Shown: positions 1-62,795 of the stretch, one piece after another | Position numbering within the stretch: position 1 is the first letter of the stretch | How the letters are laid out: every line of letters begins with the position of its first letter | NCBI GenBank assembly: GCA_023653785.1 | Contig: JAMKCH010010266.1 | Coordinates: forward strand, 62,001 to 126,000 | Length of the DNA: 64,000 bases | Reading direction: 5' to 3' | From: Ophioderma brevispina | Taxonomy: Eukaryota > Echinodermata > Ophiuroidea > Amphilepidida > Ophiodermatidae | Notes under the pieces: model-generated | Told to the model about the DNA's origin: nothing | Database searches by the model: none | Seen by the model: the letters and a program-made list of their open reading frames with translations, nothing else | Position numbers and translations under genes: made by a program

Positions 1-94
1 AATTAAGCATTTTAGGTAACTATCTTTAGTTCTAGATGACTATTTTCAATTACTACACAACAAAATTATATTTCGAAAATCTCTGAATCAGCCT
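1..94 (-). mobile_element. TTAA MITE family C, right-cut fragment at window edge
   Basis: This is the terminal part of a non-autonomous DNA transposon. Its outer end reads as the reverse complement of AGGCTGATTCAGAGATTT, with TTAA directly outside at 95-98. The interior (bases 1-60) matches, in reverse, the 5' part of the complete copy at 56,470-56,830, including the stretch ending in TGCTTAATT. The other end lies outside the window. It encodes no protein. The superfamily is not settled: TTAA target sites are used by piggyBac and some Sola elements. Confidence 0.7.
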
Positions 95-98
95 TTAA

Positions 99-24763: not shown

Positions 24764-25799
24764 ACCCCAAGCAATAAAATTTTGTGTCTTGGAGGCTAAT
24801 ACGACGGTAAAATAGCTCTTACACAAAATGATCCGAATACGATACAAACCGAATTTCCAATCGTACTCACAATGTAGTTCAATTCCGTCCCGGTTCAAAT
24901 GTAAAAGAGGGACAAAACACCCTTTTTTTCAAGATTTCAGTGGTTTTGCTACCCTTTGTACGTATGTATCGTGCACAATCTTGAAAACCCCCTTTTTTTT
25001 ACGGCGTTTCTCGTGTCCTCACATTATTCCCCTTACAAAACTAGTCATTTGCCATCATTTAAGATGTAAAAACCGCATGAAAATCCGATATTCCGACGAT
25101 TTTTAGCGCAAATGATTTCGCCTGTTTTCTATGGAAATGCCAATTTCTCGGCACACTGACTTTATGACGTCATTGTGGAGCGCCATACTAGGTGTTGGTA
25201 CTATTTTGGTATCATGAAAGAGGAGACTATAACTATCCACTGGTATCAAAACCGTAAGCATCGGGTGCTTTATACACGCATTCTCGAGGGGGAGGTAACC
25301 ACCCCCCTGGTAAGCCATTACAAAAAGGCTTGGTAAGACGAGGGTATAGACTACATACATCAACCTTTTCTCTTGTACAATTTTCATGAACAACTTGGTT
25401 CCTTAGCCATGGGAATTAATAGCAAGGTATAATGTGGGCTGTGTAGGGTTCCTAACATTGTGCAAAAACATGAGGCCTCTAACTCCGTGCTTTGGCATGA
25501 ATCACAATCACCGACTGGAATCTGAATAAGGCAAATTCATGCATATTATTGTTCTCTCATTAGCTTTTTGCAATAACAAGAAAACAAAGCTCAAGTAACA
25601 AAATAAATATCATATACAATATTCCTTGTGAACTTTGCCACATTTGGATACCAAGGTCGATATACTTTAGACGATGTACTGACCATTTTGACCTTGTGAA
25701 TAGCAGACCAGTAGAATAACATTTAGAATGGTTCCAAATTAACATGAACTTCATAAAATCACTCTCTGAGAACATAGGCCCCTCCACTATAAAGATGTC
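24764..25799. other. No supported gene
   Basis: Two minus-strand frames (25,103-25,393 and 25,560-25,787) are within chance length. CCTTTTTTTC and CCCTTTTTTTTAC tracts are present. No element boundary seen. Confidence 0.35.
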
Positions 25800-26056
25800 A
25801 CCTAAAATCTAAATTAATTTCCACATTTAAGATGAATCGGATTTTTTCAGCATAAAAAATTTATCACAGTATATACAGTGGCCAGAGATATCCGTGTATA
25901 ACTAAAGTTCCGGATCCAGAATTTTATAACAAATTGTGATTATCTATATGAAGGACTTTTCGAGTTTGAGCCTTAGTTTGTTTCACACCATGATTAGCCT
26001 ATTGACAAGCTATGTATAATTGGATGCGCCCTCTCGTGAATCTCTGAGTCAGCCTC
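25800..26056 (+). mobile_element. TTAA MITE family C, decayed copy
   Basis: GATGAATCGGATTTTTTCAG, TTCCGGATCCAGAATTTTATAA, then TATATGAAGGACTT and AATCTCTGAGTCAGCCT follow the same order as the copy at 56,470. The left terminus is missing and the base outside the right terminus is no longer TTAA. This copy is therefore 5'-truncated and older. Confidence 0.75.
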
Positions 26057-29345: not shown

Positions 29346-29349
29346 TTAA

Positions 29350-30066: not shown

Positions 30067-30070
30067 TTAA

Positions 30071-31487: not shown

Positions 31488-32685
31488 AATACATACATAC
31501 ATACAACTAGCATTTATGACGCGCCGTTCCCCAAAGGCTCAAGGCGCTTACAATAAAGAAAGTGAGAAAATGAGCAATAAATATAATCATAATGAAAAAC
31601 AAATCATTAGGAAACAAGTTGTGTCTTAAGTGCCTTTTTAAAGGCTGTTTACAGATACTGACTGCCTTAATTAGAAAGAAGGTTTGTTCCATAACTTTGA
31701 AACACCAACAGTAAACAACTTTATCACCAGCTTTTACTCGAGTCCTTGGATAATCCAACCGTAGGCAATCTTTTGATGACCTAAGGTTTCTTTTGGACAT
31801 GTAACTTGGGAAACATTTGAAGATATACAGGAGCCATGCCATTAAGAGATTAAAAACATATAAGCAATTTAAAAGAAATTCTCTGTTTCACAGGAAGCCC
31901 AATGAAGAGATTTTAAGCAGTGGTTTTTGAGTCCCTGCGTCTAGTTACAGTAAACAAGTCCTCGCGCCAATTTTGTAGGCGGCTGAAGACGAAGAGTATA
32001 CGACTTTGGTAGCGAAGAAGTAACGCATGCATAGTCGATGCGAGAAAGTATAAGCGAGCGTACAGCATGATGGCAAGTGGCTTTATCAATGTATCTGCGA
32101 ATGCGCGAGATGTTCCGTAGGTGGTAGATGAATGTACGACTAACATTAGTGATGTGTGATTCCATGGTCATGTTTGAATCACGTTGGCACCAAGATTTCG
32201 TATCGTTTGAGATGGTTTAATGTGAGAGTTTCCTATAGACATGTTATATCAGGAAGGAGCTTTTTGTAGTATGGATAGCGCCAAACAAAGAACCTCAGTT
32301 TTAAATCAATTGAGTTTTTATATGTGACATTCATCCATATTTTGATGTCCTTTATGCAGTTTTGAAGAACAGTCAGTGCATTTTCCAATTCATGAGGATC
32401 TGTTGGGTCAAAAGGAACATAAAGTTGAGTATCATCTGCGTACACATGATAGCTGACACCATGATGACGGGCAATATCTCCAACTGGTAATGTGTAAATA
32501 CTGTAGCCTATAGGACCGACTACAGAGCCCTGTGTGCAAACCAAAATGGGCAGTGATTGGTTCAGAAAGATAGCCTGCTATGTCCACGCGGCTAGTCCAG
32601 CCTTGAAGATAAGACTGGAACCAGTCCAAAGCTGTTCCTGACACACCAATGCGCTTTGATAGGCGGGATATACGATATAATTTTA
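31488..32685 (-). mobile_element. CR1/L2-type LINE relic, RT C-terminal half
   Basis: This is the decayed 3' half of a non-LTR retrotransposon read on the minus strand. In order: GVSGTALDWFQSYLQG and a following VDI-GY-SEP block (32,690-32,530). Next, after a frameshift, come a GSVVGPIGYSIYTLP block and the reverse transcriptase catalytic motif YHVYADDTQLYV (about 32,440). Later blocks are NCIKDIKIWM, YHLRNISRIRRYI with LILSRIDYACV (near 32,060), LQNW, and a C-terminal RNLRSSKDCLRLDYPRTRVK block (near 31,770). At least three frameshifts break it. The 3' end has a GCGCGTCATAAATG-like tail followed by repeated TGTA (31,488-31,505), typical of L2/CR1 tails. It is 5'-truncated and non-functional. 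Confidence 0.92.
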
Positions 32686-35305: not shown

Positions 35306-35309
35306 TTAA

Positions 35310-35660
35310 AGACATCTATCATTGAATTTTGGGAAAAATATTTGAAATTTGCAGGAATATGCTTCAAAGTGAAGGATAAGGTCTGTGGAATCTCATACTT
35401 CCCTTTTCCAGCTGTAGAATTGACCGACAAGAAGAAAACGGCAGTGTTCCAAGATCCGATTCTCCATTCAATTGCCGTGTTGTGTAAGTGGGCCGTTCGG
35501 ACAGGAATGACTAAAATCTCTGATTGTGTCCGTATTACGTTGCTTCTGGTCTTATCCTTTGCAGGGTATGTTAGGATCCTGTACTATCGTCATACATGCA
35601 AAAATCTGATTTTTGATGATTTTTTTCGATTTGCCGATTTACAAATCACGGATAGTGTCT
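35310..35660 (-). mobile_element. TTAA MITE family A, full-length (351 bp)
   Basis: Flanked by TTAA at 35,306-35,309 and 35,661-35,664. Reading inward, the right terminus is AGACACTATCCGTGATTTG and the left is AGACATCTATCATTGAATTT, both diverged versions of the family A terminus. The interior matches the nested copy at 47,017 in reverse (AGCATATTCCTGCAAATTTC-like block, TCCAAGATCCGATTCTCCAT, GGGTATGTTAGGATCCTGTA). The 123-codon frame 35,342-35,713 spans it and is a by-product. Confidence 0.9.
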
Positions 35661-35822
35661 TTAAGTATTCAAACTCTGTGCCCTTTCCACTGATATGTTA
35701 TTACTTATTTTAACGCTCAGCTCATGCTATATCACCTAACAGTAGTACTCTCTTTGCAAGATTATTTTTTGACAAAATTATTCATTGCCTCAAAAGCACT
35801 AATTTTCAAATGCAAAATTAGA

Positions 35823-45211: not shown

Positions 45212-46419
45212 TAACATTATTAAGATGCTACGCATTGTAATAACGATTACTACAACATAAAAATAACCTTTTTTGTACTGACAACACCTCTTCCTACCTC
45301 ACTTTAGGTGTGTGTGTGGGGGCTACAGCGAAAGATGCCAATGTCGCATTTGACAACTGCCTTTCTTTCATGCAACGAGTCACAATTTACCGATTTGCAA
45401 ATTACCCAGAATGCAATGTGAGCAAATGACGTCACTCTAACGTAGGTACGCATGCGTATCGCAGGTTTGACAACGTCCGAGATTCCCGAGCGTTTCTCTC
45501 TCACACATTACACTTCATTTTGGGTAATGTGAAATTGTTTTTAATTCAGCATCAAATTTGTCCAGGGGATCTTCAAGCTTTTATTTCTAAGTCAACATGC
45601 GACTCAATAGAAAGTTCCCATAGTTTAAAAGGAAATCGGGTAATACCAACCCGAGGATACAATGCACGCAATTTGCCTGCGCATCTACAAATCCAGATTT
45701 CGAACTTTCTAATTCTAAACGTATCTCTAGAATGATTTTCTTTTTTACAAATCGCTGATCTTTTTATCTGAACTAATGCTAAAACCCGTAAACTAGGTAC
45801 TAACATCGCCAAGGGCTTCCAATTCCTGTTCCCTCCTTCACTTCTCCATCTCTTTCTCGCGCCCCCTCTTTATCTCTGTCTCTATCACTCCCGTCCTCAC
45901 TTCGTCTCTTTCCAGTGTGCAAACGGTAAGGATGATATGAAGCATAAAGCAAATCATCCTAGACATTCCATCGCTGTCGCTATCGTATTCTCCTTCAATA
46001 TCTCTATCTGACAAACGTATTCGGAACCAACCCATTAAACATTTATTAAGGATCGTAATTAATCTAACAAGAATTTACAGAAATGGCTGAACACGCGCAC
46101 AATGTTGCAAACATGATACTTGCATGTCACGTATGTCACATGAAGTATTCAATCAGTTGATGAATTTATCCAGTTATCGAGGCTAGTAACAGACCAATTA
46201 TAATGCCACAAGAGAAAATTCATTGTCGTCACGGAAAGCTATCAAAGCAATCAGTAACCAGAATCCAGCCAGGTGCATTTGTTGCCATATTTGGAACAAT
46301 CTTCAAGCAACCCTGAGAAAAACCATTATTTGCATTTGATGTTATAATAAAGACTTAGATTGTTTTCTTCTAGTTTTGAGTGTTTTACTTAGATTCAAAT
46401 TCCGTTTAATGGCGTTGCT
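45212..46419. other. No supported gene
   Basis: Bases 45,830-45,900 are a CT-rich tract (CTCCATCTCTTTCTCGCGCC). Open frames at 45,304-46,035 are of chance length and follow its low complexity. Confidence 0.4.
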
Positions 46420-46772
46420 TGATTAAAGGTACATTAAAGGAGTTTCGAAAGATCGTAATTGTTGATAGTTTTTAAATGCATGACTGAAGCTGCATACCAA
46501 GTATCATCTAATATCTTTATCTTAACTTCCAACCTGCCTTTCACCTCAATATGAATTATGGTGTGAGTCTGCGTATGTTCATTTGGTTATTGGAGAATTG
46601 TAATATTCGTGGTATGTTATCCGACTCAGGTTGTTATATTTCTTGAATTGAAGCGACAAAATATCGTTCCCATACGTCCTACTCTGTAGATTGTTTAGGA
46701 CAGGAAGATGTAGTTATGAACTCTTGAAAATATATCCATGTAATTTTAAAAGACTTACACACCTTAATTTAA

Positions 46773-47475
46773 AGGTGCAACGAGAGATTCTGAGGCACCC
46801 AGATATTGTGTCATAACACTAGTGATTTCATAAAGATTAGACACGCAATAGATCTCTTACCTTGTATTTGGTTACAGAAATGTCTTAAAAGAGAAAAAAA
46901 AGTGATTTTGACTTGCTTTTATTTCAATATAAAACATAAGCTGAATTTTGTATTTTCTCCTATACGAAATTAGAAATTTTACAATTTTTGTACCAAAGAA
47001 ACATTTCTCAGCTTAAAGACACTATCAGTGATTTGCTAAATCAGCAAATCGAAAAAATCATCAAAAATCAGATTTTTGCATGTACGTAACAAGTACAGTT
47101 ATCCTAACATACCCTGCATATGATAAGACCAGAAGCAACCTAATAAGGACAGAATCAGAGATTTTAGTCATTACTGTCCGAACGGACACTTACTACAACA
47201 CGTAATTGAATGGAGAATCGTATCTTGGAACACTGCCGTTTTCTTCCTTTTCTGTTAATTCTACAGCTGTAAAAGGTAACTTATGAGAATTCTACAGACT
47301 TATCCTTCACTTTGAAGCTATTCCTGCAAATTTCAAATATTTTTCAAATCACTGATAGTGTCTTTAATCTTTTCAGATGGGGATATTTTTGATGGAAAGC
47401 TTACATCAGGGCAAAAATCAGAATTTTCAATTTTTTTCTATGGATACCTGTTATTTGAAATCTCTCGTTGCACCT
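46773..47475 (+). mobile_element. TTAA MITE family B, interrupted copy
   Basis: Flanked by TTAA at 46,769-46,772 and 47,476-47,479. Both termini, read inward, are AGGTGCAACGAGAGATT or AGGTGCAACGAGAGATTT. Without the nested insertion it is 352 bp, matching the 351-bp copy in unit 2. No coding content. Confidence 0.95.
47017..47363 (+). mobile_element. TTAA MITE family A, nested insertion (347 bp)
   Basis: Perfect 19-bp terminal inverted repeats AGACACTATCAGTGATTTG, flanked by TTAA on both sides (47,013-47,016 and 47,364-47,367). The insertion point corresponds exactly to the single TTAA at 48,108-48,111 in the uninterrupted duplicate, where the sequence reads TCTCAGCTTAATCTTTTCAG. Two downstream family B copies (55.3 and 55.8 kb) also have an uninterrupted GCTTAATC at this point. 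Confidence 0.97.
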
Positions 47476-47498
47476 TTAAGATGAAAACGAAAATAGAA

Positions 47499-47519
47499 TT
47501 TTTTTTTTTTTTTTTTTTT
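47499..47519. repeat. T tract, 21 bases
   Basis: Homopolymer at the junction between the two duplicated units. Confidence 0.9.
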
Positions 47520-47867
47520 GATTAAAGGTACATTAAAGGAGTTTCGAAAGATCGTAATTGTTGATAGTTTTATGCATGAATGAGCTGCATACCAAGTATC
47601 ATCTAATATCTTTATCTTAACTCCAAACCATGCCTTTCACCTCAATATGAATATGGTGTGAGTACTGCGTATGTTCATTTGGTTATTGGAGAATTGTAAT
47701 ATTCGTGGTATGTTATCGACTCGGGTTGTTATATTTCTTGGAATTGAACGACAAAATATCGTTCCCATACGTCCTACTCTGTAGATTGTTTAGGACAGGA
47801 AGATGTAGTTATGAACTCTTGAAAATATATCCATGTAATTTTAAAAGACTTACACACCTTAATTTAA

Positions 47868-48218
47868 AGGTGCAACGAGAGATTCTGAGGCACCCAGATA
47901 TTGTGTCATAACACTAGTGATTTCATAAAGATTAGACACGCAATAGATCTCTTACCTTGTATTTGGTTACAGAAATGTCTTAAAAGAGAAAAAAAAGTGA
48001 TTTTGACTTGCTTTTATTTCAATATAAAACATAAGCTGAATTTTGTATTTTCTCCTATACGAAATTAGAAATTTTACAATTTTTGTACCAAAGAAACATT
48101 TCTCAGCTTAATCTTTTCAGATGGGGATATTTTTGATGGAAAGCTTACATCAGGGCAAAAATCAGAATTTTCAATTTTTTTTATGGATACCGGTTATTTG
48201 AAATCTCTCGTTGCACCT
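47868..48218 (+). mobile_element. TTAA MITE family B, uninterrupted copy (351 bp)
   Basis: TTAA at 47,864-47,867 and 48,219-48,222; termini AGGTGCAACGAGAGATT and its complement. It provides the empty site for the nested family A insertion. The 68-codon frame at 47,705-47,911 ends inside it and is not a gene. Confidence 0.95.
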
Positions 48219-48242
48219 TTAAGATGAAAACGAAAATAGAAT

Positions 48243-48510
48243 ATTAGTGCTAGTTCCAGCTACATTAACGGACAACCAACAGGAAACAGACAGACAGACA
48301 GACAGACAGATAGACAGACAGACAGACAGACAACGGGTATACCTGTGTGACTTTTCTTTGTTCAAATTAGATGACTGCAAGTAGCAAAAAGAAACACAAG
48401 TCATGACGGAATAAAGCAATGCATACGAAATGGAGTCGCACAAGTATACCTCAGTTAGCACAGATAAATAGATAGCTACATAGCCAGAGAACTAGATAGA
48501 TAGATAGTTT
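48243..48510. repeat. GACA/GATA microsatellite element, copy 1
   Basis: AGTGCTAGTTCCAGCTACAT then ACAGACAG repeats (48,285-48,332), unique DNA, and GATAGCTACATAGCCAGAGA with GATA repeats to about 48,510. The start and end motifs recur at 58,888-59,035, so this is a dispersed repeat with internal microsatellites. Confidence 0.75.
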
Positions 48511-49832
48511 GCTTGATTTAGTTTAAAAATTAATCACTTGTCTGCTACGATGGAATAACGCAAAGCTGAGTCTTTTCAGGCAAGAAGTGGGAAAGCATAT
48601 CATTTTTCTGAAAGATTAAGTGGTATTATCAGTAGCAAAATATCGATTTTCAAGCTATTTACAGTATCATAAAGCAATGACCTGTTTTTCCATCATCAAA
48701 TTATTTTGTTCAACCACAGGCACCGTAATATAAAATAAAGCTTGGTAATAATATGTGCTCAACCGCCGTCAGACTGTTGATCCTTCAAAGGAGAGAGTGA
48801 ATGATACATCCATCATCCATATTGTATAAGCTACAAAGCATGAATGAATATTCCCTCATTATTAACCCCAGGCAAAAGCCTCGATCATAAGCACACAGCA
48901 ACAAACCCCTTCACTGTGTTCATAATTCAGCTAGACCACCAAAATCAACTACCAAACTGATAAACTCCTTGTAAAAACCCTTGTTGGTCCTGGAAGGTGA
49001 GCTCTAGGGCATTTCCGTGGGTACCCAACTCCCGAGTAATTGGACAGAATAAGGGCATCGGTCATGATGTCAGAGTAAATTTGGTCGATATGTAAGGGCA
49101 GAGATTGCTTTCTAAGCTGTATCCGTGAAGACAAGTCTACCTTTATTAGATATTGCCTGGTGTGCGAAATTTAACTTGACTCGAAAACATCAAGAGTTTT
49201 ACCAAAACAAATAAATTAAAACCACTTGAAAGAGATTGGAAAATATTGATATCAATATTGTTTTCACAATAAACTCAACAAGTGAACCAAAATGAGGCCA
49301 AATATTTTGAAGTATTTAAATAAGGTGCACATGAAATGTACTTAAAAGATCTACTGGTTTGGGGCTCAAATACTTCAGACATTTAGCTGCGGGCAATAGG
49401 TTAACTTTGAAGCTCATGGTTGTATCAATTGGAACGTGTGGTTCGGTTCCCCCGATGTAACTTGGCGAAAGAGGCTATGAATAAATAATGATTTAGTGGA
49501 ATGATAGATAACAATCGCTTACAGAGCCGCAATATTGTTTACGTCACTCATGTAAGCGGTAAGCATTCAGTTCGATGATGATTGTTTGAATGCTTATTTA
49601 ATGGATCAATTAACGGAATGTCATGTTACTTCTGGGTTCGATTTTCTCATTACTGGATCACATGTCAAATCGGTGTCAACAACAGCCTTAGTCGTGCATA
49701 TTTAAGATGATCAATCGATGATCAAAATTAAAATTATTAAATTAAAATTCAGATTTAAAATAGACAAATTTAGAACTAAAGCAGGTGTTAATTATTAATT
49801 AATAATATTATTATTAATTAATAATATTTCAG
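48511..49832. other. Unassigned AT-rich stretch
   Basis: No gene supported. An AATTATTAATTAATAATATT-type palindromic tract at 49,786-49,829 leads into the candidate exon below. Confidence 0.35.
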
Positions 49833-49916
49833 TTTATTTATTACGTCTGAGCGAACATGTGGGAACGAAGATGGTGACCCGTGCAAGTTCACACCAGGGA
49901 ATAAACCATGCGAGAC
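49833..49916 (+). CDS. Candidate internal exon, secreted-type Cys pattern
   Basis: ATATTTCAG opens an 84-nt frame that ends CGAGAC followed by GTAAATAAG (phase 2 in, 2 out). The translation LFITSERTCGNEDGDPCKFT then PGNKPCE has cysteines spaced x7 and x8 and strongly polar residues, as in extracellular disulfide-rich domains. Local GC rises to about half. The acceptor lacks a long pyrimidine tract. A TCG-x-DG motif recalls laminin N-terminal or netrin-type segments, but that is too little for a family call. Confidence 0.33.
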
Positions 49917-52564
49917 GTAAATAAGACGATTGGAAAAATACTGGGAAAAATAAACAAATGCCTACAGATACCGATTTCCTTTATGCCTATTACAGAGATG
50001 AGCAAATTTTACACAAATTTACATCTTGAAGGCATTTTGGTGAACTATTTGTTTGGTAAATGTAACTAGCGATAAAAAATCACCGACTCGATTCACTTGG
50101 CACAGTTCAGTAGCTTTCATTCACCAATGTATTTAGAAAATACACCCCTGTTTTTTTTTGGTATGGTATATGATACCCAGATCACACAAAGTCAGTTCAT
50201 GTCAATGTATGTACAAGTACAACCCACTGAACTGTGTCCTTGGTAGATGAGCTTATTATAACTCATAGTGCCTATAGTTCTGGGTGTGTCGACTGGAAAT
50301 TGGTAAATATCTGGTTCTATCCATTGTTAATCTTTCCTATTATCATGATTGTATGCATGCAATATTATGATGCTATTGATACAGACCAATCGTAATTCTT
50401 GTTATTTTTTATGTAATATACATAGTAATAAGTAACTTCTTCGTGACTTCTAGATAATAAAATGCTCGTTCCCGTAGTTATGGTCATCCAAATCAATTCA
50501 ATGGTTGACCTTGAATGTAATCATCTCAATTTTAAGTCCCCTCTGTTCAGTCTGTTGATAGAGAATTCTAAGAACAGGAAAGCAATTTAAATGCACCCAC
50601 GATAAACAGTTGGTGGTTTTTTTGGTGTTGATTTGGGTATTTTTTTCAAGTGCAATGTTTTCTAAAAGTGGGGTCTCTCAAAAATGATATTGAGCCAATA
50701 TGTAAACATATGCTTTATGCAATCATATCTATATCCCTTAAAAGATATTCTCTCATTGTATAGGGCATTTAAAAACGAGATGGATTTTCCAATTTAAGAC
50801 AATTTCAGTTTAAATTGTTAAAATCTGATGAGAATGGTAACTAAAGTAAGTAAAACCTTTTTACTTTGTTCTTATTAACAAACCTACATAGTCTTGATTC
50901 GGTAAACATAGCTTATTTTAAACATAGCTATGTTTTATCGGCATATAGTGGTATACTTACAGATGACAGTTTAGGTCTCGTACCTATTAAGTAAAGTTAG
51001 TCATACTGAAAACTATCGGGGGACGCACATAGCATGGAAATAGATTTATACCGTAGATATACAAGTTTCAAGCAAGACAACGCACAGGCATTATTGTGAA
51101 AACATTATACAGAGAGTAAACTCTTAAAATCTTTCTCAAAAGCGCATCAGTTGCAAAATGATTTAAAATAGTGAGGCCATCATACGGCGATAGCAATGCA
51201 CAAGATTTTTACCAGTTTTAATTGCTTGGAAATTGTATAAAACCCAAACTACGAATTATTGAATGATATGTGTATGTATATATTTTAATCCCATTAACAA
51301 GTACAAACTCTTTTATTATATTTAACATAGCAACCAAAACAAGTTGACCAAATCAGAAGCAAAACAGATATATATGTTTGTTATAAACCGATATATAAGT
51401 TTGATGTGAATTATGTTTATAGGCTGCCCAAACTACTCTATTAAAGTAGGTTATTGAAAAAAGGTGATCTGCTGCGTTGCGTCATTTGAATATACAGTAT
51501 GTAAATATATTCCGTCACAAATTCAATTATTACTCTTTAACAAAATGCTTCTTAATAAGGCATTGCAATGAAAACGCACGCAACCAAATTGGCGCGAAAA
51601 CCACCATCGGTCGTTATTAACCAAATAATGGCGGTTAAATTGTACTATGTTGTCATTTGTTACAGTCGTTATGTCAACATAACTCGGGGTGAAATAACAG
51701 TTAATGTTTCTATTAAACACCTGTGTCGGTAAATGCAAATGCTATGTGGCGCTTCGTGGTAAAATATCTTCATGCATCATCAGATATCTATTGAAATGTA
51801 TTATTGGAATTTTTGGTAGAATTAAGTTCAGTATTTATACTTATAATGATCTGTTTAAACATAAGTTTAAATAAATTTTACTTGTATCTAAATCTGACTG
51901 GGTTTAGAAGTAAAAAAAGTTTTTACTCTTCGCGATCAATGAGTTTATTTCCCCATAAACAAATTCAGCACCGGCAACCATTTTGTATGGCCACGTTGCG
52001 CAGAATGGAAAAGAAAACGGGTTGTGACGAACTAGGTTGTTACCTAATTCTTTTTTTGATTGAATAATTTAACCTGAAGCAGATAACCTGAAGGTTGGAT
52101 CATCGCCTACGGCGTCTAACCCAGATCTTGAAATTGTAGTGAAATGGTGGTATTGACGAACGAAACATTTTGTTTTTCTAAAAAGGCATTAAATGCGATT
52201 TTACATTCCCATAGACTTTGTACAGGGAAACAGGACAAAATGGGGGTAATGTTGTAAAAACTAAACATTTGGTTTTATATTTCTCAAGTAATTGATGAGT
52301 TGTGCGGTTTTTGTGGTTACAAAAATAAATAACATCCATGCAATTACTTTTTTCTGTGTATCATCAGAAACGAAGAACAAGTTGTCACAACAACATTAGC
52401 TCTTTTCTATTTTTGTTTAGTATTTTTAGAAGTACCCACTTTCCTTAATTTCCTGATAAATGATTTTAAATACCAGGTGTTTTTAATTTTCCCTGAATTT
52501 TCACCTTAAATCATTTTCATCACCCATGAAACACTCGATTTAAAAAGCCAAAGTGAGATTTTAA
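49917..52564. other. Largely unassigned
   Basis: A short inverted pair GGCACAGTTCAGTAG / CACTGAACTGTGTCC lies at 50,100 and 50,228. Frames at 51,523-51,738 (minus) and 51,804-52,067 (plus) are of chance length. No other element recognised. Confidence 0.35.
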
Positions 52565-52912
52565 AGGCTGACCCAGAGAATTCCCGAAGGCGCCCTCAAT
52601 TTAAAAAAAAATGGTTTGTTTTGCACATACATAATGCTTGTCCATATACTAATCACTGTGTGAAATAACTAAGCTCAAAACGAAGTCCTTCATATAGAAA
52701 ATTACAACTTTGGTTTTTTTCCTGATCCGGAATTTTTGTTATACACAGTATCCTATAGTATAATATACTGTTCATAAATGTTTACTGCATGAAAACGAAA
52801 AAAAAAATCTGTTTCATCTCTAACTTTTGAATTAAGCATTTGAGGTGACTATCCTTACTTCTAGTATACTTTTTTAATCACTAAACAAAAATATATATCT
52901 CTGAGTCAGCCT
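52565..52912 (-). mobile_element. TTAA MITE family C, full-length (348 bp)
   Basis: TTAA at 52,561-52,564 and 52,913-52,916. Termini are AGGCTGACCCAGAGAATT (left) and, complemented, AGGCTGACTCAGAGATAT (right). The interior matches 56,470-56,830 in reverse: CTGATCCGGAATTTTTGTTA, AACGAAGTCCTTCATATAGA, GAATTAAGCATTTGAGGTGA. Non-coding. Confidence 0.9.
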
Positions 52913-52916
52913 TTAA

Positions 52917-54486
52917 GTGTTTTATTTATAAATACCTCCCTGGAGTTTAAGGTTATAAGCACCTTCCATCTAGGTTTGGAAGTAAGATTTTTTTAAAATT
53001 AGGTAATTTAATTGAAACAATAAAAGAAATATCCTTCTTGAAATCCATAAATCGTAATGTGAGTGCATCAAAGTGACAACTGACATAAATAGGCCTAATT
53101 TGGTGTAGATAACAACTTTGTTGCGCTTAAAATTGAATATCTGTTTAGTGCATTAAAGTCATAACTGCAGATATGACTTTGTTGGACTCAAATGACGAAA
53201 TATGTGTCGAAAATTTCAATCTTTGCTATTTTTAGGTTTTAACTAAATTGATTTAGAGGATTTGATTTTGTAATATTTTTTTCTGTAAGATCATTTAATC
53301 AGATGTTTCTACCTTAAAGGCGCAAATTTAAAAGTTATGGAAAAAACATGAAATGTTTTGCAAGTCGAATCCAACACTGGCGAATACAAATTTCAAGTCT
53401 CTTCGAATCCAAAATAACTAGCTAATTCATTGTATACTAAAATGGCAGTAATTATACCACAAAAACCGATCGGAAAATCTACAACTCGGGTACGCCAATG
53501 AACAAGTATGAGGGCATTTTCACTATATAAACATTGAAATGTACCCAAATATGCCTGTAATATCTCAATGCCTTTGCTCAATGCCTAAACAAAAACGTAA
53601 TACATGTAGTTTGCTTAGAATAGAAGCTGCCATTACAATAAATTCTTCACACAATCCCCAAATTGCTTTGAATCATTCATGCATATTGAGTCGTAAGACA
53701 AAGCAGACGGCATTTAAAATTGTTCATATTTTACACTGTAATTCAATAACAAACCAAGAGAAATGCTGATTCATTTCTTCTGTTCATGATATTGTATTGT
53801 AAAACATTCTTTCCATTTGCTTAGTTATACTTGTCAAATAAGAAGGAATTTAAAATATATAACAAAGAACCCGTTATAGGTGGATCGTGTACATTCGCGT
53901 AGTTTACCTTATAAAATCTCTAGTCGAAACAAACAAAGGCATCATCAAATTTAGTCGTTCAAACAGTCGAGTGTTTTGTTATTTTATTGATTTGGTCGTA
54001 ACAGAAGCAACTCTCTCTTTCTTTCTCATTTGATTTCCCCAAATGATGGTAAAGATAGTAAAAATAAAAATACATAAATAAAAACTTACAAGCATCAAGG
54101 TGTTTTGTCACTTCTGTTGTTACTCTACGTGTCCATAATAAACTAGTTCTCAAACAAAACCAAAAACATTTCTGTAGAAAACGCCTTTTCGCTCAGCCCT
54201 TTTGCTGATTGTATTTCGGTCTTACCATGCTGACATCGTTATGAAGACTGACATGAAATTATAACTGTGACCGTAAAATTAATTTTGTGATTCCTTTTGT
54301 GAATATATTTATGACGACCTAGGAAGGTGGTTAGCGCCAAAGAAAAATAAATTTAATTACCAAGTGACATGTTCAATGGCGCGTATTGAGCATTTTAAAG
54401 CATACATACACTATTCATATAAATTTCAATAAATTACTCAGAAATGAAAATTTTGGGCTTGCCTTGATATTAATGGAATTTTCATA
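52917..54486. other. Unassigned
   Basis: No gene supported. Frames at 53,393-53,581, 53,539-53,769 and 53,959-54,153 are chance-length. Confidence 0.4.
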
Positions 54487-54580
54487 GTTTATAATAATTT
54501 ATCACTTGAAGCTTGGGGGATAATCTGTAATAAATAAAAACACAATTAACAAGTCATGAACTAACCCGAGCACCGTTTAA

Positions 54581-54908
54581 AGGTGCAACGAGAGAATTCA
54601 AGGATTCTGTATTTTCCTTCATATGTAGTGTTTTCATATATATTAGACACTCAATAGATATCTTAGCTTTTATTTGGCTACAGAAATGTCTTAAAAGTGA
54701 AATCAAAGGTGATTTTGGTTTTGATATAACACATAGGCTGAATTTTCTTATTTGCACCTATAGGAAATTAGGAATTTCCAAATTTTTGTACCAAAGAAAT
54801 GATTAATCCTTTCAGATGGGGATATTTTTTGATAGGAAGATTTACATCAGTGTAAAAATCAGATTTTCACATTTAAACACCTGTTATGTGAAATCTCTCG
54901 TTGCACCT
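54581..54908 (+). mobile_element. TTAA MITE family B, unit 1 (328 bp)
   Basis: TTAA at 54,577-54,580 and 54,909-54,912; termini AGGTGCAACGAGAGAATT and, from the right, AGGTGCAACGAGAGATTT. Shorter than the 351-bp copies through internal deletions, including the part around the AGCTTAATC site. Confidence 0.92.
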
Positions 54909-55052
54909 TTAACTACAAATTTTAAACAAACGTAGAAGATACGACTATTTTAAGTATTTCGATTTATAATAATTTATCACTTGAAGCATGGAGAAATAAT
55001 CTGTGATAAATAAAAACACAATTTACAAGTCGTGAACTAACCTGAGCACCCG

Positions 55053-55394
55053 AGGTGCAACGAGAGAATTCAAGGATATGTATTCTCGGTCATATGTAGT
55101 GGTTTCATATATATTTGACACTCAATAGATATCGTAGCTTTTATTTGGATACAGAAATGTCTTAAAAGTGAAAACAAAGGTAATTTCATTTGGTTAATAT
55201 GGTATAACACATACGCTGAATTTCTTATTTGCTCCTCTAGGAAATTACAAATTTCCAAATTTTTGAACCAAAGAAATAATTATCAGCTTAATCCTTTCAG
55301 ATGGGGGATATTTTTGATAGGAAGCTCTACATCAGTGCAAAAATCAGAATTTTCACATTTAAACACCTGTTATGTGAAATATCTCGTTGTACCT
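55053..55394 (+). mobile_element. TTAA MITE family B, unit 2
   Basis: The left TTAA has been lost in a small deletion (GAGCACC-CGAGGTGCAAC against GAGCACCGTTTAAAGGTGCAAC in the other units). The right end has TTAA at 55,395-55,398 and a terminus with two substitutions. Frames over it on either strand are artefacts. Confidence 0.9.
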
Positions 55395-55542
55395 TTAATT
55401 ACATATTTAAAACAAACGTAGAAGATACGACTATTTTAAGTATTTTGATTTATAATAATTTATCACTTGAAGCATGCAGGGATAATCTGTAGTAAATAAA
55501 AACACAATTAACAAGTCATGAACTAACCCGAGCACCGTTTAA

Positions 55543-55883
55543 AGGTGCAACGAGAGAATTCAAGGTTCTGTATTTTCTGTGATATGTAGTGGTTTCATAT
55601 ATATTAGACACTCAATAGATATATTAGCTTTTTTTGACTACAGAAATGTCTTAAAAGTGAAAACAAAGGTGATTTTATATGGTTATGATGTAACACATAG
55701 GCTGAATTTTCTATTTGCTCCTATGGGAAATTAGAAATTTCCAAATTGTTGTACCAAAGAAATAATTATCAGCTTAATCCTTTCAGATGGGGGTATTTAT
55801 GATAGGAAGCTTTACATCAGTGCAAAAATCAGAATTTTCACATATTTAGGAACACCTGTAATGTGAAATCTCTCGTTGCACCT
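55543..55883 (+). mobile_element. TTAA MITE family B, unit 3 (341 bp)
   Basis: TTAA at 55,539-55,542 and 55,884-55,887, with intact termini. It retains the uninterrupted ATCAGCTTAATCCTTTCAG site. Confidence 0.92.
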
Positions 55884-55938
55884 TTAACTACAAATTTCAA
55901 ACAAACGTAGAAGATACGACTATTTTAAGTATTATACG

Positions 55939-56469
55939 ATTTGCCTATACATCTTTATCATTTCTCTGGATTACTTTATTTTTTTCATTTCCAACGAAAT
56001 AACTCCATGGTTTAATGAAATTTAGGCAACAAAAAGTACAAGTAGTAAAATCACAAAACATTAAATTAAGAAACATACTCTGAGACACATATGGATGATT
56101 TTTTTCAAAAGAATATCCTCAGATGTCTGTTTTACCGCGAGCCAAAATAGTTGAGAACCCCTGCATTAAATGGTATCTCGACTTGAATGTAATCATCGAT
56201 AACACTGCTATTTTTAGCCAAGAGATTGGAAGATAGAAATTTGAATTGAAAGTGAAAGAATGTATAACCAAAGCTTTGGTGTAAAGTCGAACATCATCAT
56301 GAAATATCTGAAGGTGTAATAATCTTGGATCTCATGATATCTTAAAGTTGTACGTCCTTTAACAAGATAATATCTGGAATTATATGGAATCGTATTAGAA
56401 ATCACCAAAGATAAAATATTTACAGAGGATATTGGGTGAATCTATAACGATTTTCTGTGTAGATATTAA
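55939..56469. other. Unassigned; possible hAT-type MITE end
   Basis: GAGCCAAAATAGTTGAGAAC then CCCTG (56,140-56,164) reads, complemented, CAGGGGTTCTCAACTATTTT, a common hAT-type MITE terminus. The partner end is not visible. Confidence 0.35.
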
Positions 56470-56830
56470 AGGCTGACTCAGAGATTTTTGAAATATAATA
56501 TTTTGGTGTAGAAATTAAAAATAGACAACTAGAAATAAAGATAGTAACCTAAAATGCTTAATTCCAAAGTTAGAGATGAATCGGATGTTTCGTTTTCATG
56601 CAGTAAACATTATTATGCATAGTATAACAGTACCGTAGGATATCGTGTATAACAAAATTTCCGGATCCGGAATTTTATAACAAAGTTGTGATTTTCTATA
56701 TGAAGGACTTCGATTTGAGCTTAGTTATTTCACACAGTGATTATTATATGGACAAGCATTCTGTATATTCAAAAACACGATTTGTTTGAGAATTGAGTGC
56801 GCCCTCATCGGGAAATCTCTGAGTCAGCCT
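56470..56830 (+). mobile_element. TTAA MITE family C, full-length (361 bp)
   Basis: TTAA at 56,466-56,469 and 56,831-56,834. Both termini read inward as AGGCTGACTCAGAGATTT, an exact 18-bp match. The interior includes a TTTCCGGATCCGGAATTT palindrome. This is the best-preserved copy of the family. The frame starting at 56,786 begins inside it and is not a gene. Confidence 0.95.
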
Positions 56831-56834
56831 TTAA

Positions 56835-58195
56835 AACTCACTGTAAATCCTTCACACTTAAATAAGATTGTCTATTTTACCAGGAACCGTCTGTTATACT
56901 GCCCAGTATATCTCAGCCCCTTTACCTTGCAAAACCCCATTAAACGCGGTACAGTGTTTTCTATCACATTCTCAGCTATTATCCTAAATCAATTAGGACA
57001 GTTTTGTAGTTACAACAGAATCAGTAACATCAACAGGGCATAAAGTACCTAGCGCTCTGTGATAATTGTAATTAATAGTCTGTGTTGACTTTTACTAACT
57101 GCGGGTTATAATCATCAGCTAGTTGTAGAAAGCTTTCGTTAAGATCAGCAGTGCTACACAGTCATTATCAAAATGTAAATAATAGTACATAGTATTTGCA
57201 GGTTATTTCATGAAAAATATTGGGTTTATTCAAATGAGCAAATGGGGAAATTACACGTGTCCAAATCGGAAAAAATTACAGTGTGAAGATGATATTGAAT
57301 GTCAAACCTATAAAGAGGCAGAGGGGTGTATAATTATTCTCTCAATACAAGTCACCTCGCACCTTTAATATAATGACTTAAAATGATGCAGCGATGATGC
57401 TCATTGTATTTACATCACTAGATTGCCGCTTTTGCATTAAACGATCTGAAGCAATGGTGGTGTGTATTATCTATGTAAGTCGTTCACATATCCTTGGCCT
57501 TAAAAATTCATCCTGATATCGTTAGCGTTTCTCTTCCAATATGATATTGCATTACAACTTCAGATAAAATGGTGAATAGATTTGATGATGCAAAGATTTG
57601 GCGGGAAATCCTGTATCCATCAGACTACATTTTTCAAGAGTTTTTTTTTTTATTAAGACTTGACACTACGTTGTGAGCAAGGTAATGATTCATACTCGTA
57701 CATATTTACCTGGAGATAAATGACGTACATAGCGTTCACTGTTTAAAGATATATAGTTGTAATAAAATGCAATGGATGATCAGTAGCACGCCTCTTTGGC
57801 GAAATTGCTTTAAAACAATGCATAACTTAGTGACGTTGGTGTAATGGGAGTATGTACGCAGTCTTTCATATATGAAAGTCGCGGACAGTTTATTTACGAT
57901 TCATCATATCTAACGAGATGATAATTTCTTCTAATTAATTGATCCTTGAACTTCATGGTAGATGGAAACAAAGCAATCAATAAGCGATCGATCGATATTT
58001 GTTTGCTTTAAATAGTAAACCCATAGACGTCTTTGGTAACTGGATGCTAACATCATATAATTTAATTAACCAAAAACTTGTTGTGAATTGATTAAGTTAT
58101 TAGATGGTGTGTGTGTGATGTGATATCAAAGGTCTATCCAGATGTATGTAATTAAAAATTTAGGAGTATAATTAATAAACAAATACATATCGGAC
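56835..58195. other. Unassigned; solo MITE-like end
   Basis: CACCTCGCACCT followed by TTAA (57,352-57,367) looks like one end of another AGGTGC-type element whose partner is not found. Otherwise nothing is supported. Confidence 0.35.
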
Positions 58196-58270
58196 ACCCC
58201 CCCCCCCCAACACGGGCAATCACACACACCGGCACACCTCCCCAAACACACGCACACACACACACACACA

Positions 58271-58302
<32 letters not shown>

Positions 58303-58305
58303 TTA
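58196..58305. repeat. AC microsatellite with C run
   Basis: A C-run at about 58,197-58,208 precedes imperfect AC repeats to about 58,305. Confidence 0.95.
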
Positions 58306-58624
58306 CAAAGCTACAGTGAGTTTTAATTGAAAAACTCTTTAAAAAAGGGGACATTTTTTAGACATTTTTTCAGAAAAAATACACTTTTTCAAAACTATAT
58401 AAGGAAGAATTTCAAACCTATATAGTTTTGAGATTTTTCTCTTAAAAAGACACTTTTTTTAGACATTTGTTTAGATTTTTTTCAGTTTTTTCATTTTTTT
58501 CTAGTTTTCTCACTTTTCTTAGCCAAGAGGATTGCGCCGCAGGCCTATATAGTTACTAAACTAGAATAAACTCAAGAACTAGATTACAGTTTATTCCGTT
58601 ATAGGACAATTCGTAAATAGTAAC
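58306..58624 (-). repeat. Dispersed repeat related to 16.4-16.8 kb
   Basis: GGATTGCGCCGCAGGCC (58,519) is the complement of the 16.6-kb block. TTTTTAGACATTTTTT-type motifs recur in both. Inside, CAAAACTATATA and TATATAGTTTTG (58,389-58,431) form an inverted pair. Confidence 0.6.
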
Positions 58625-58745
58625 TCTAGTAAAAATACTCCCACAATGTAAGAAAAGTACTCCCACAATGTAAGAAAAGTACTCCCACAATGTAAAATAC
58701 TCCCACAATGTCTCTTTATAACTTAAAAAATACTCCCACAATGTA
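58625..58745. repeat. TACTCCCACAATGT short tandem array
   Basis: Five copies of TACTCCCACAATGT, three joined by AAGAAAAG, the last two more loosely spaced. The complement of the motif occurs once at 16,434, where the repeat is not amplified. Confidence 0.9.
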
Positions 58746-58749
58746 TCTC

Positions 58750-58830
58750 AGTAAGACCACACACACCACACACACACCACACACACACACACACAACACA
58801 CACCACACACACACACACACACACATGTTC
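58750..58830. repeat. AC microsatellite
   Basis: CACACA and ACACCACAC repeats, interrupted. Confidence 0.95.
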
Positions 58831-58887
58831 ATACACACATATAGCTAAAATATCTGTATAGGTTATTGGATTGCTAGTTATCTATAG

Positions 58888-59035
58888 TTAAGTGCTAGTT
58901 CTAGCTAGATTAACAGACAGACCTAAACAGACAGACAAACAGACAGACGGACAGATTGATAGCTACATAGCAAGAGACTAGATAAATAAATAAAGATAAA
59001 TAGACAGAACGACAGACAAATACATACATAGATAG
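58888..59035. repeat. GACA/GATA microsatellite element, copy 2
   Basis: AGTGCTAGTTCTAGCTAGAT, then GACAGACAG repeats, then GATAGCTACATAGCAAGAGA, matching the element at 48,243-48,510 but without its unique insert. Confidence 0.75.
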
Positions 59036-59869
59036 ATGCGTGCCTGACCATCAATATTTAATGTTTACTTTCAATAACTGTTAAATATCAAAGATTTGAT
59101 AGTGCATTTATGAAGCAATACATTATTATAAAACAAATGGAGAATTAAAAGTCTGTAAGATCTAAATTAAGCTCAGGAATGGTTGTTTAATCCTTTACCT
59201 TGCAAGAAAAGATTATCGTCATAAATATAAAATACTTTCTCCCCCTAACCAGTTATGTTGAGGCTGTATTCGTCTTACGTGAAATTCCTCTTATGTCAGC
59301 TTTTAATAACATTTTGGTCAGTGATATAATAGTACAGGGAGGAAGAAACTAACATACTCGCAGCGAAGGTTGTGACTTGGGTTCTTAGATTCTTATACTA
59401 TGATGGCTCAAAGAAATCCAAGTGTGGAAAATGTTCAAAGGCGCGGGAAAAAAATAAACTCACTCATAACTCAGGCTAAATGCACAACGGGGTTGAGTGA
59501 CTATAATAGGCGCCAAAAATAGACTAAATTTGCATATCATTTGCAATAACTCGAAGGGGAGGGCTCGATCCCCAAGAGTCACTCGTACTGGGGAAGACAA
59601 TAAATTTGGGGGTTATCGAGTAAAAAAAAGAAATTCTCTAAATCTACTGTAGCATTTATTCTGTTAGATTCTATAACTTTCATACAAAAGAAATATTTAT
59701 TTGTAAACTAAAATGTTAGCTTACCCGTTCTAATCTCGTATAAGTCCTTAACTACAGAATGGAGATTATATATTGAAGATCACATTAGCCCCAGGTATCT
59801 AAATTCGTGGATGACAACTCCTACACAACTGTATAAAACTCTATGAGTAAGTTGGCTTCCTCTCGGTAG
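59036..59869. other. Unassigned
   Basis: No gene or repeat boundary supported. Confidence 0.4.
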
Positions 59870-59975
59870 GACCAATATCACGATACCAGCTAAACACAAC
59901 GGCTACGACTCAGCTAATCTCCTCCCCACTTACGAACTGCTGCCCCTGCAACAGACGCATACAATCCCCTACTAA
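59870..59975 (+). CDS. Candidate terminal exon in a GC-rich island
   Basis: A pyrimidine-rich acceptor (GGCTTCCTCTCGGTAG) opens a 34-codon frame to TAA with about 62% G or C at third positions (my count: 21 of 34). It reads TNITIPAKHNGYDSANLLPT then YELLPLQQ. An overlapping frame (NCCPCNRRIQSPTNQPFNTV, open to TAA near 60,030) is also GC3-rich, so the true frame is uncertain. The island could instead be 5' regulatory DNA of a gene starting near 60.6 kb. Confidence 0.28.
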
Positions 59976-60189
59976 CCAACCATTCAACACCGTCTGTGTC
60001 TACAGTAAGACGGATGTAGTGTTGTATGAGATGGATATGTAAAAAAGTCGTGGCTAGGTAGCTACCTTCGCTTTCCAAATGTTACAGGCATGACTTGACA
60101 GCGTCAGCCGGAAGCAGCAACGTGGAGGAATTGCTCATTCTCAGCCCTAGACTTAAGTTGTGGGCTTATGAGCCAATTGAGATGAAAAC

Positions 60190-60480
60190 TGCGCGCCGTA
60201 TGAGTAACTGGCCAGCAATAAAGTACATGAACATGCCCTCTTATTGAAAAATGCTTGGCATCACAACTGTTGCTCGCGGTTAACTCTTCGATTCCTTGGC
60301 TACATCGGTTCCGATGTGTGAGCGGCTGATGTGATTAAAAGCCTAACGTGTTGTTCTGTTCTGCGCTGCGCTGAGCATACACATAGAAAGTCACCGCCCA
60401 TCAATTGATGATTGCCGCAGCGTCGCGCTTGCTTTTTGTGTTGGAAAGTTTGTGTGTTGGCCAGTTTATAGTATGCACGT
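60190..60480. other. CpG-richer island
   Basis: GC and CpG content rise here (CTGCGCGCCG, TTGCTCGCGG, CGCAGCGTCGCGCTTG) against an AT-rich background. No frame is convincing; the minus-strand frame 60,300-60,533 is of chance length. Confidence 0.35.
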
Positions 60481-60554
60481 TTGCACTTAATTTTTATGAT
60501 AAAATTGAAAATCACGTTAAACCTTACGCTCAACTTGTCTGATTAGAAGTTAAG

Positions 60555-60668
60555 GTGTTATATAATATTTGGCTTGCTATTGTAAGAGGACACTCAAGCA
60601 GTCAAAGGGCATTGAACCAGTCACAGAGAATCAATTTGAGAAGTTAGAAGCAGAAACGAAATTGAACA
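60555..60668 (+). promoter_or_regulatory. Possible TATA promoter and untranslated first exon
   Basis: TATATAATA (about 60,557) lies roughly 30 bases upstream of AGGACACTCAAGCAGTC. The stretch from there to GAACAG followed by GTAACA (60,668) has no ATG, as expected for a 5' untranslated exon ending at a donor. It directly follows the CpG-richer island. Each signal is weak alone. Confidence 0.22.
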
Positions 60669-61790
60669 GGTAACATTTTAATTTTTTAATTTTCCTAGTT
60701 GTTCCAAAACATGAACATTTCAACATGTGAATCAATAGCTTTATATAGCAAATCATAAGACCTGCAATGAAAAATGATGAAAGTGCTGAAATTCTAGACA
60801 TTTATTAAATGAAAATGGCTTTCGAAATCTAGAAGAATATAATAAATGCATTCTTTCTGTACATCAAAAACGAACGATTGGTAAATTTTGCCCAAACAAT
60901 GGAGATATCAAATGCGCATACTACTACACTTTTGCCTAAAGTAGTTCAATATAAATTGGTGCAAAAAAGAGACCCAAACTCCCAATTAACCAAAGTAAAT
61001 GTGTCAGTGTCGTTATAGTTATGTACTTCATCAGAATAATATAAATATCCGTTTAATTTGATCCGATGAGCCCGTATATATGGCTATTTTAACTCAATAG
61101 CTAGATTTGAGATACAGATTTGTGGCAACATTCTCGACCGGCCCTATCTGATTGTGTACGGCAATGGTATAGCACCACCTCCTGGTAAGATCCAGATCTT
61201 GACAGAGGAACGGGAACTGGCCGAAATTTGTAAATAAACAAAACTGTCCAGTCTCGAACGGGCTTAGTTTAATTCGAAAGTTTTACTTGCAATCTGCTTG
61301 TAGAATCGCGAGATAATAATGCTTGCAAGAGAATTCAAACTTCAGTTTGAGAACTAGATCGAGAACGGAGAGCTGTAATTTGAATTAATCATAACTCTGA
61401 ACTGGAATGAACAATGATGGGACGATGACATTTACTTATGGCGAAATTCATGCATTAAATCATGAAACAATAAGGACAACATAATATACTGTGTGTGAAT
61501 GAGTTTCTGCGTCTCCGATCTACTTTCTGGCAAGCAAATCACTATTTTGACCGCTCGGATTCACTTCTGTCCACGACAATGTTATTTTATTAATTATATT
61601 GATGAACAGCCTTTGTTCATACCAATATACAATAAAAATGATATTGCTGACATTCTTTTTATGTGTCATTATTTGTACAAAGTCATGATGAATAGTACCC
61701 AATAAATGACGTAGGATATTTAATGCATCCATAGTTATAATCTCTTTTCCTAATATAATACCTATAATGGCTCTCGGCATGGCCAACATC
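60669..61790. other. Unassigned
   Basis: No gene supported. Overlapping opposite-strand frames at 61,499-61,789 are of chance length. Confidence 0.4.
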
Positions 61791-61792
61791 GG

Positions 61793-62177
61793 GTACTATC
61801 AGTGGTTTGCTAAATCACAAAATTGAAAAAGTTAAAAAAAAATCAGATTTTTGCATGTCTGTAGTCTGTAACAAGTAAATGTATCCTAGCATACCCTACA
61901 AGACTAGTGATAAGTCCAAAAGCAACCTAATAAGGGGAACATCAGAATCGTTCATTACATGCCTGTCCGTACGGACACTTACTACAACACGTAATTGAAT
62001 GGAGCATCTTATCTTTGAACACTGCTGTTTTCTTACTTTTCTGTCATTTTTTCAGTTGGGTGAAATAACTTTTGGGAATTGTCCAGACTTATCATTTACC
62101 TTTAAGCTATTCCTGCAAATTTGAAATATTTTGACCCGTTCGTGTGGATCACTGTGTACTGTGTACTGAAGGTGTCT
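61793..62177 (+). mobile_element. TTAA MITE family A, older copy (~385 bp)
   Basis: Right terminus AGACACC-type with TTAA at 62,178-62,181. The left end is degraded (GTACTATCAGTGGTTTGCTA) and has lost TTAA. The interior follows the nested 47-kb copy: ATCAGATTTTTGCATGT, AAAAGCAACCTAATAAGG, TACGGACACTTACTACAACA, CGTAATTGAATGGAGCAT. It contains a small duplication (CTGTGTACTGTGTACTG) near the right end. Confidence 0.85.
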
Positions 62178-62181
62178 TTAA

Positions 62182-62430
62182 TAAGTACAAGACCTAAAAG
62201 TAATTTTCATCTGTAAACAGATCACAATAAGAACTGCCCGTAAAAACATACCGAGGGTCTAAAATAAGACTATGTACAGTTTATTAAAGAAGGTTTAACT
62301 TGCTTTAATTACCACCATCATCAGCGGATTCTGATTTAATACTATCCTCGGCACGATTTCTGAGGATTGATTGATGTCGTTCTTTCTGTTCCTGTGTGTT
62401 CTGTCATACATTCCTTACCTCTTTTGGGCG
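62182..62430. other. Unassigned spacer
   Basis: Spacer between family A and family D elements; nothing recognised. Confidence 0.4.
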
Positions 62431-62434
62431 TTAA

Positions 62435-62774
62435 AGGTGCGTGTTCCGATCGTTTTGGGAACCCCCTGATTTAAAACCGAAGTAGTATCGATTTCGATAT
62501 CAGATGAAATGCCGTATTTTTCTCATTGTCGTCATGAAATTTGAGACCACATATCTATTAATCCCCAAGCTATAAACAAAAAAACGGCCGTTTTAGTGGT
62601 GAACCATCAATATTAGCACAGTATGGAATGGGCTTTGCAATATGCATTCTTATTCTACCATTCAAAACCACAAGTTTGTTTCCCACAGGTACTTGATGGG
62701 GCTTTGCGCAAGTGCCAGGCTCGGCTCTCATATCAAGTAGAGAACACAATAGACATAAATCGGAACAAGCACCT
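62435..62774 (+). mobile_element. TTAA MITE family D (340 bp)
   Basis: TTAA at 62,431-62,434 and 62,775-62,778. The left terminus is AGGTGCGTGTTCCGATCG and the right, complemented, AGGTGCTTGTTCCGATTT. Interior non-coding, with AAACGGCCGTTT at its centre. It is the only copy in the window. Confidence 0.88.
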
Positions 62775-62795
62775 TTAAAAAGAACTCATCTTATA

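Follow-up and report, generated by a model that had tools for sequence, protein, structure and literature searches.

Probable Kolobok-type miniature inverted-repeat transposable elements in the brittle star Ophioderma brevispina, with a split terminal motif and a one-sided arm shared by several families

Transposons of the Kolobok superfamily are distinguished from piggyBac by a TTAA target duplication in combination with 5'-RR and YY-3' termini (in passages of PMC9587614), and the ten full-length Kolobok elements from Xenopus treated in passages of PMC6004289 all start with AG and have TTAA at all but one end. Among echinoderms, KolobokP is tabulated in sea stars, urchins and sea cucumbers, and not in brittle stars, in the passages of PMC9587614. 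We have analyzed a stretch of 64,000 nucleotides from the brittle star Ophioderma brevispina (contig C10264, positions 62001-126000; hereafter the window), which belongs to an assembly of 2,514,598,782 bases in 65,844 contigs. The window contains four families, A to D, of short TTAA-flanked sequences that are probably miniature inverted-repeat transposable elements (MITEs), that is, non-autonomous elements of a Kolobok-type cut-and-paste DNA transposon, mobilized in trans by a single lineage of transposase. Kolobok membership as such is probable, not proven, and the find amounts to a large set of MITE families, new in themselves but of Kolobok type, and not to a novel kind of element.

The original prediction, made from the letters of the window, had placed four TTAA-flanked families of about 340-360 bp here, and all four were found in a re-scan of the window, as elements of 336-369 bp with inverted 18-bp ends (coordinates include the TTAA; all copies in this paragraph are on the forward strand). 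The exception in length is copy B1 (46769..47479), which is flanked by TTAA on both sides, has the ends AGGTGCAACGAGAGATTC / ...GATTT and measures 711 bp because an element of family A is nested within it. The nested copy, A1 (47013..47367), has perfect 18-bp inverted ends and sits at a TTAA within B1, for which B2 (47864..48222) provides the empty-site counterpart. Three further B copies form a tandem array, with B3 (54577..54912) in the first unit, B4 (55049..55398), which has lost its left TTAA, in the second, and B5 (55539..55887) in the third. Family C is represented by C1 (52561..52916), which is 81% identical to C2 in reverse orientation, and by C2 (56466..56834), with perfect 18-bp inverted ends, and family D by D1 (62431..62778), with GATTT at the right end only. 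A TTAA on both sides, and with it the 4-bp target duplication, was also seen in A1, B2, B3, B5, C1, C2 and D1. No match was obtained from Rfam.

Pairs of TTAA-flanked inverted ends were then compared in a local sample, consisting of the window and 201 kb from the same genome. Among the rows picked by pairing alone, 20 of 25 started with AG, as compared to none of 26 for three control words; the 20 rows include cross-pairs of neighboring copies and the duplicated half of sequence L014, and correspond to about 14 distinct elements. In a 50-kb hold-out, the AG start was present in 4 of 6 TTAA rows and in 0 of 5 control rows. The scan also yielded the further families E1 (AGAGACACTGGCACATTT), E2 (AGCAATAATGGCACATTT) and F (AGGAGAACCCGTACTAAG). 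All families from A to F start with AG, the first five bases being AGACA in A, AGGTG in B and D, AGGCT in C and AGGAG in F, and with this start they have the 5'-RR/YY-3' termini of Kolobok. Our Kolobok-type reading follows from this, because TTAA with RR..YY and AG first matches the signature published in the passages of PMC9587614 and PMC6004289.

By the same match, an undescribed or Sola-like group, as proposed in the original prediction, is not supported. A separate superfamily of this sort would be consistent with the finding of no transposase in 40 open frames, and we nevertheless consider it very improbable, since TTAA and RR..YY fit a superfamily described in the passages of PMC9587614, the ends of Sola themselves lying outside the comparison. 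The original prediction was correct in that the ends do not have the CCC start of piggyBac; all begin with AG. MITEs of piggyBac type would share the TTAA duplication, but piggyBac ends start with CC[C/T]T (in passages of PMC2872659) and those of A to D do not, for which reason membership was rejected and this reading is given almost no credence. The window does contain a TTAA-flanked pair of 725 bp with CCCTAAAAG ends that resemble the piggyBac type (29346-30070), and these CCCT ends are clearly different from A to D.

The second component of the ends lies further in. In families A to D, AG at positions 1-2 and GATTT at positions 14-18, in one register, were reached in 0 of 20,000 shuffles, in a test of families chosen because the motif had already been noticed in them. 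Positions 3-13 of the same ends show 21 agreements out of 66, which 1,410 of 20,000 shuffles reach and which is little above the shuffles; this weak agreement fits a split motif. In a sample free of the window (L001-L022, of which L014 was used in its first half only and the mitochondrial L007 was excluded), 248 sites were compared, and [GC]ATTT follows TTAAAG at position 14 in 16 of them and at position 13 in 10, with 0-3 occurrences at each of the remaining offsets from 3 to 39 save offset 39, which has 5. Fifteen of the 16 position-14 sites are ends of families A to E, and 3 of the 10 sites at offset 13 are B or C ends shortened by one base. For five control heads, position 14 was occupied at 3/508, 0/232, 0/154, 2/96 and 1/126 sites (sample including L007, without L022).

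In a genome-wide scan for the end motif of the original prediction, TTAAAGR-N10-GATTT was found 113,483 times in the 2.51-Gb assembly, as compared to 2,883 times for the reversed pattern. When 100 of the GATTT matches, all from the first contigs, were assigned by end positions 2-13 with at most three mismatches, 75 were ends of A to D, 17 represented three additional end types and 8 remained unassigned. The version with CATTT occurs 22,650 times, and its reverse 3,331 times, a count that is inflated because it derives in part from local tandem repeats similar to TTAAAGGGYCATTCCTTCATTT and not from MITE ends. Clusters of such matches were observed at C124:6575-7020, often 27 bp apart, and at C105:54756-55340 and C58:65523-65598.

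At the level of single copies, GATTT starting at positions 11-16 was present in 31 of 52 examined ends of A to D, a set that includes duplicated loci and in which not all ends are independent. It was found at 6/8 left and 4/8 right ends of A, 3/7 left and 8/9 right ends of B, 4/6 left and 2/5 right ends of C and 4/4 right ends of D. The left ends of B within the window read GATTC or GAATT. Copies with GATTT at both ends exist for A, B and C, and D has it at one end. CATTT was seen at 4/6 ends of E1 and at all 3 physical ends of E2.

Several families have more in common than the terminal blocks, at one of their two ends. Reading inward, a GC-rich box near positions 27-34 and the word TTTTTGC near position 57 recur in several of them. 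The pattern GYGYCC is present at positions 19-48 in 8 of 40 block-bearing ends, as compared to 3 of 309 other TTAAAG sites, and TTTTTGC is found at positions 52-68 after TTAAAG in 16 of 346 sites, where 1.64 were expected; 15 of these 16 sites are ends of A to C or E. For five control heads the counts of TTTTTGC were 5, 8, 1, 1 and 1, as compared to expectations of 3.46, 8.46, 0.98, 0.63 and 0.85. Pairwise scores between ends of different families were weak (60 shuffles for each of 141 pairs), the best being z 4.8 for the left end of A and the right end of B, and a profile test was therefore adopted, in which a profile of 95 bp from one end was trained without the family under test.

This left-out profile recovered 3/3 ends of E1 (E 4.3e-9, 9.1e-9 and 7e-4), 4/6 of B (best E 0.0019, the other three 8-10), 3/3 of A (E 0.015, 0.18 and 2.1, only about positions 42-72), 2/3 of E2 (E 0.051 and 0.32) and 1/3 of C (E 0.15). 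For the opposite ends, tested in A to D only, it recovered 0/3 in A, 0/5 in B, 0/3 in C and 0/3 in D. Within the window, the arm lies at the right end of B2 (48124..48218, reverse strand; E 1.9e-16 with the full profile, which has B2 in its training set), at the left end of A1 (47017..47104, forward strand; left-out E 0.015, limited to model positions 46-72, and E 2.4e-8 with the full profile) and at the right end of C2 (56738..56830, reverse strand; full profile E 3e-12 with C2 in the training set, unrecovered when C was left out). Family C carries the same GCGCCCTC box, and its copy in L019 also the TTTTTGC word, and a further B copy matches positions 60-116 of E1 in BLAST (8e-4). Judged from these sequence comparisons, the arm is shown in E1, supported in B and A, and marginal in E2 and C, and family D appears tied to the group by the terminal motif alone, an arm in D being not shown. 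The interiors are unrelated over most of their length. The original prediction of unrelated interiors thus holds for most of each element and fails for one end region, which the profile identifies as common to several families.

Since the boxes had been noticed in the data used for the first tests, an unused 50 kb was taken as the hold-out. By BLAST it contains one copy each of B, C and E2 with the arm end, and a 26-bp match to a B end. The profile search recovered the three copies at 9e-8 or better, the next match being at 0.64; since copies of B, C and E2 are in the training set, this is a test of recovery and not of new homology.

A number of results weigh against a Kolobok-type reading with a shared end code. 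The GC box and the TTTTTGC word were spotted in the same data as the first counts, and in the hold-out each was found in its slot at 0/56 sites, while the [GC]ATTT slot was filled at 2/57 sites against 1.19 expected, which is unremarkable. The 26-bp match to a B end, located in L023 of the hold-out, was missed by the profile. Seven of the ten offset-13 sites with [GC]ATTT are not copies of named families. The left-out profile recovered D in 0/3 cases, and GATTT is present at 0/5 left ends of D, which read GATCG, GATTG or AATCG, one of them shifted. Family F starts with AG and is without [G/C]ATTT; with CATTT in E1 and E2 and neither version in F, the block marks a group of families and not every TTAA-AG element here. 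Of the original claim that all four families have AGR with GATTT at positions 14-18, the single register and the genome-wide pattern stand, and its application to every end does not, given the 31 of 52 ends and the left ends of D.

Also to be counted here is that no transposase domain was detected in the 40 open frames examined, where Pfam yielded two reverse transcriptases, one enzyme domain below threshold and nothing else. A lone D end in L002 had no partner end over about 18 kb downstream. The B-type pair at C30:67529-69135, considered as a longer element, was rejected as it consists of two B copies, one almost complete and the other partial. The idea that one transposase reads a split motif is favored by the genome-wide motif, its fixed position and the arm, while an autonomous element was not found and the cargo is in part related. 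The longer arm shared by several families makes one transposase lineage the likelier reading. It also points to a common ancestor for at least some families, whose cargo can then not be regarded as entirely unrelated.

Working from the Kolobok family, we suggest that a Kolobok transposase encoded elsewhere would bind both ends in trans and pair them, cut at the AG tip, excise the element and insert it at TTAA. Contact in terminal recognition would be made at the fixed tip and at positions 14-18, and the one-sided arm, with its GC-rich box near 27-34 and TTTTTGC near 57, could be a second binding site at one end. Families that share the arm would descend from a common element, of which the inner part and the second end were replaced or diverged. 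In its full form, in which one Kolobok transposase lineage has moved at least seven MITE families through a modular, asymmetric code (AG, [G/C]ATTT at 14-18 and the one-sided arm) with about 100,000 recognizable ends, this model is put forward tentatively, at somewhat less than an even chance.

Shared descent alone would account for part of these data, if one MITE lineage gave rise to the families long ago and the end bases they have in common are an undecayed remnant that has no role in binding. The arm common to several families is in line with this, as are the end positions after AG, which agree at 12 of 16 for E1 and E2 and at 10 for A and C and for B and C. Neutral decay would however not leave positions 3-13 of A to D near the level of shuffles while positions 14-18 are identical, and D has the block with an undetectable arm; we regard descent alone as unlikely. 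Convergence, with several different transposases that prefer similar AT-rich ends, would explain why F and the left end of D deviate from the block, and no transposase is known here that would speak against it. It is quite unlikely in view of the one register across families with otherwise unlike ends, and of the shared arm.

Evidence of movement at TTAA, as expected for Kolobok-type elements, comes from the duplicated loci. B1 and B2 lie within a stretch that is repeated at about 1095 bp (about 46419-48243, two units), and B3-B5 lie in three units (54488-55933), each with a MITE and flank, at a spacing of 476-490 bp, so that independent insertions are fewer than copies. With A1 excised in silico, the alignment of the B1 and B2 units has 6 substitutions over 723 bases (0.83%) and 11 gap positions, and the A1 site in B2 is a single TTAA with the join unchanged, i.e., an exact empty site. 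Either A1 was inserted after the duplication or it exited B2 cleanly; A1 is a polymorphism if the two units are haplotypes that the assembly has placed next to each other. Every one of these readings implies a TTAA-specific move that is recent relative to the divergence of the units. In L014 (1-10000), a stretch of ~5015 bp that contains copies of D and E2 is present twice in tandem, which could be an assembly effect.

The B array also bears on the possibility that the elements are solo long terminal repeats (LTDRs) of KolobokP elements, which according to passages of PMC9587614 have their own inverted ends of 11-18 bp and form tandem multimers, as B is in tandem here. Those repeats measure about 450 or 660 bp and are associated with duplications of 3-5 bp without strong target preference in the same passages, as compared to 336-369 bp at TTAA in the window. 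The spacer of the B array, moreover, is duplicated flank and not an internal region, because flank sequence extends beyond the outer copies. KolobokP membership was rejected on the length of the LTDRs and the nature of the spacer, and we hold this reading to be highly improbable.

The window contains additional copies of two families, namely an A copy at 35306..35664 (reverse strand, 88% to A1), a worn A copy at 61787..62183 (forward strand, 80% to A1 over 61795-62132, the limits being approximate and set by eye), a C copy truncated by the window edge at 1..98 (reverse strand) and a worn C copy at 25789..26055 (forward strand). Other TTAA pairs outside the window are one of 1452 bp in L024 (66-1517) with a perfect 18-bp end AGGGGCATTTCGTGATCC and a longest internal frame of 102 aa, which a large inverted repeat (L024 99-2026) overlaps, and one in L005 (932-9373) with identical 22-bp inverted ends AAATTTGACCCCTGTACAAACT, 8442 bp apart. 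The window further has a reverse transcriptase fragment at 32233-32577 (RVT_1, E 6.4e-7) and short tandem copies of AAAATACTCCCACAATGT at 58632-58748, adjoining CA-rich repeats. L007 (contig C3) derives from the mitochondrial genome. The echinoderm code (code 9) gives a clean reading of its COX1, to which the frames for cytochrome b and two NADH dehydrogenases lie in opposite orientation (gene names except COX1 by eye). Among the 120 listed of 7,999 matches to this COX1, those with a name and more than 80% identity come from brittle stars, led by Amphiura sp. at 90%, and a mollusc as the host was rejected on the code and these matches.

The means by which one transposase acts on a diversity of MITE families are usually deduced from a few terminal bases. 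In the present genome, two blocks are conserved in several families, and one arm in some of them, at very high copy number, so that candidate contact bases can be read by comparison. If true, a modular end code would allow the elements that one transposase moves to be predicted from sequence only, and it would add a large population of Kolobok-type MITEs in a brittle star. No account of such MITEs in ophiuroids was found in the open-licence literature, as judged by titles and abstract openings.

Among the described systems, the Kolobok superfamily as presented in passages of PMC9587614 has the same TTAA duplication, RR/YY termini and AG first; it differs in that no transposase was seen here, and in that [G/C]ATTT at 14-18 and a one-sided arm do not appear in those passages. 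KolobokP solo LTDRs resemble the present elements in their short inverted ends, RR..YY termini and tandem copies, in the same passages. The P element offers a comparison of working principle only: its transposase has a THAP domain, which recognizes a site of 10 bp internal to the terminal repeat, with a spacing that differs between the ends (passages of PMC7776569), and the arm box could be such an internal site. That a THAP domain might read the TTTTTGC box is a guess by analogy. The P element differs in its 8-bp target duplication, its 31-bp repeats and a binding site at both ends, in the passages of PMC7776569. The Xenopus T2-MITEs, finally, are alike in comprising several subfamilies, with TTAA and an AG start, that are ascribed to Kolobok transposases in passages of PMC6004289. 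Membership in T2-MITEs proper was rejected, since the terminal AGGRR required there does not fit A to D, and is found only in F (AGGAG).

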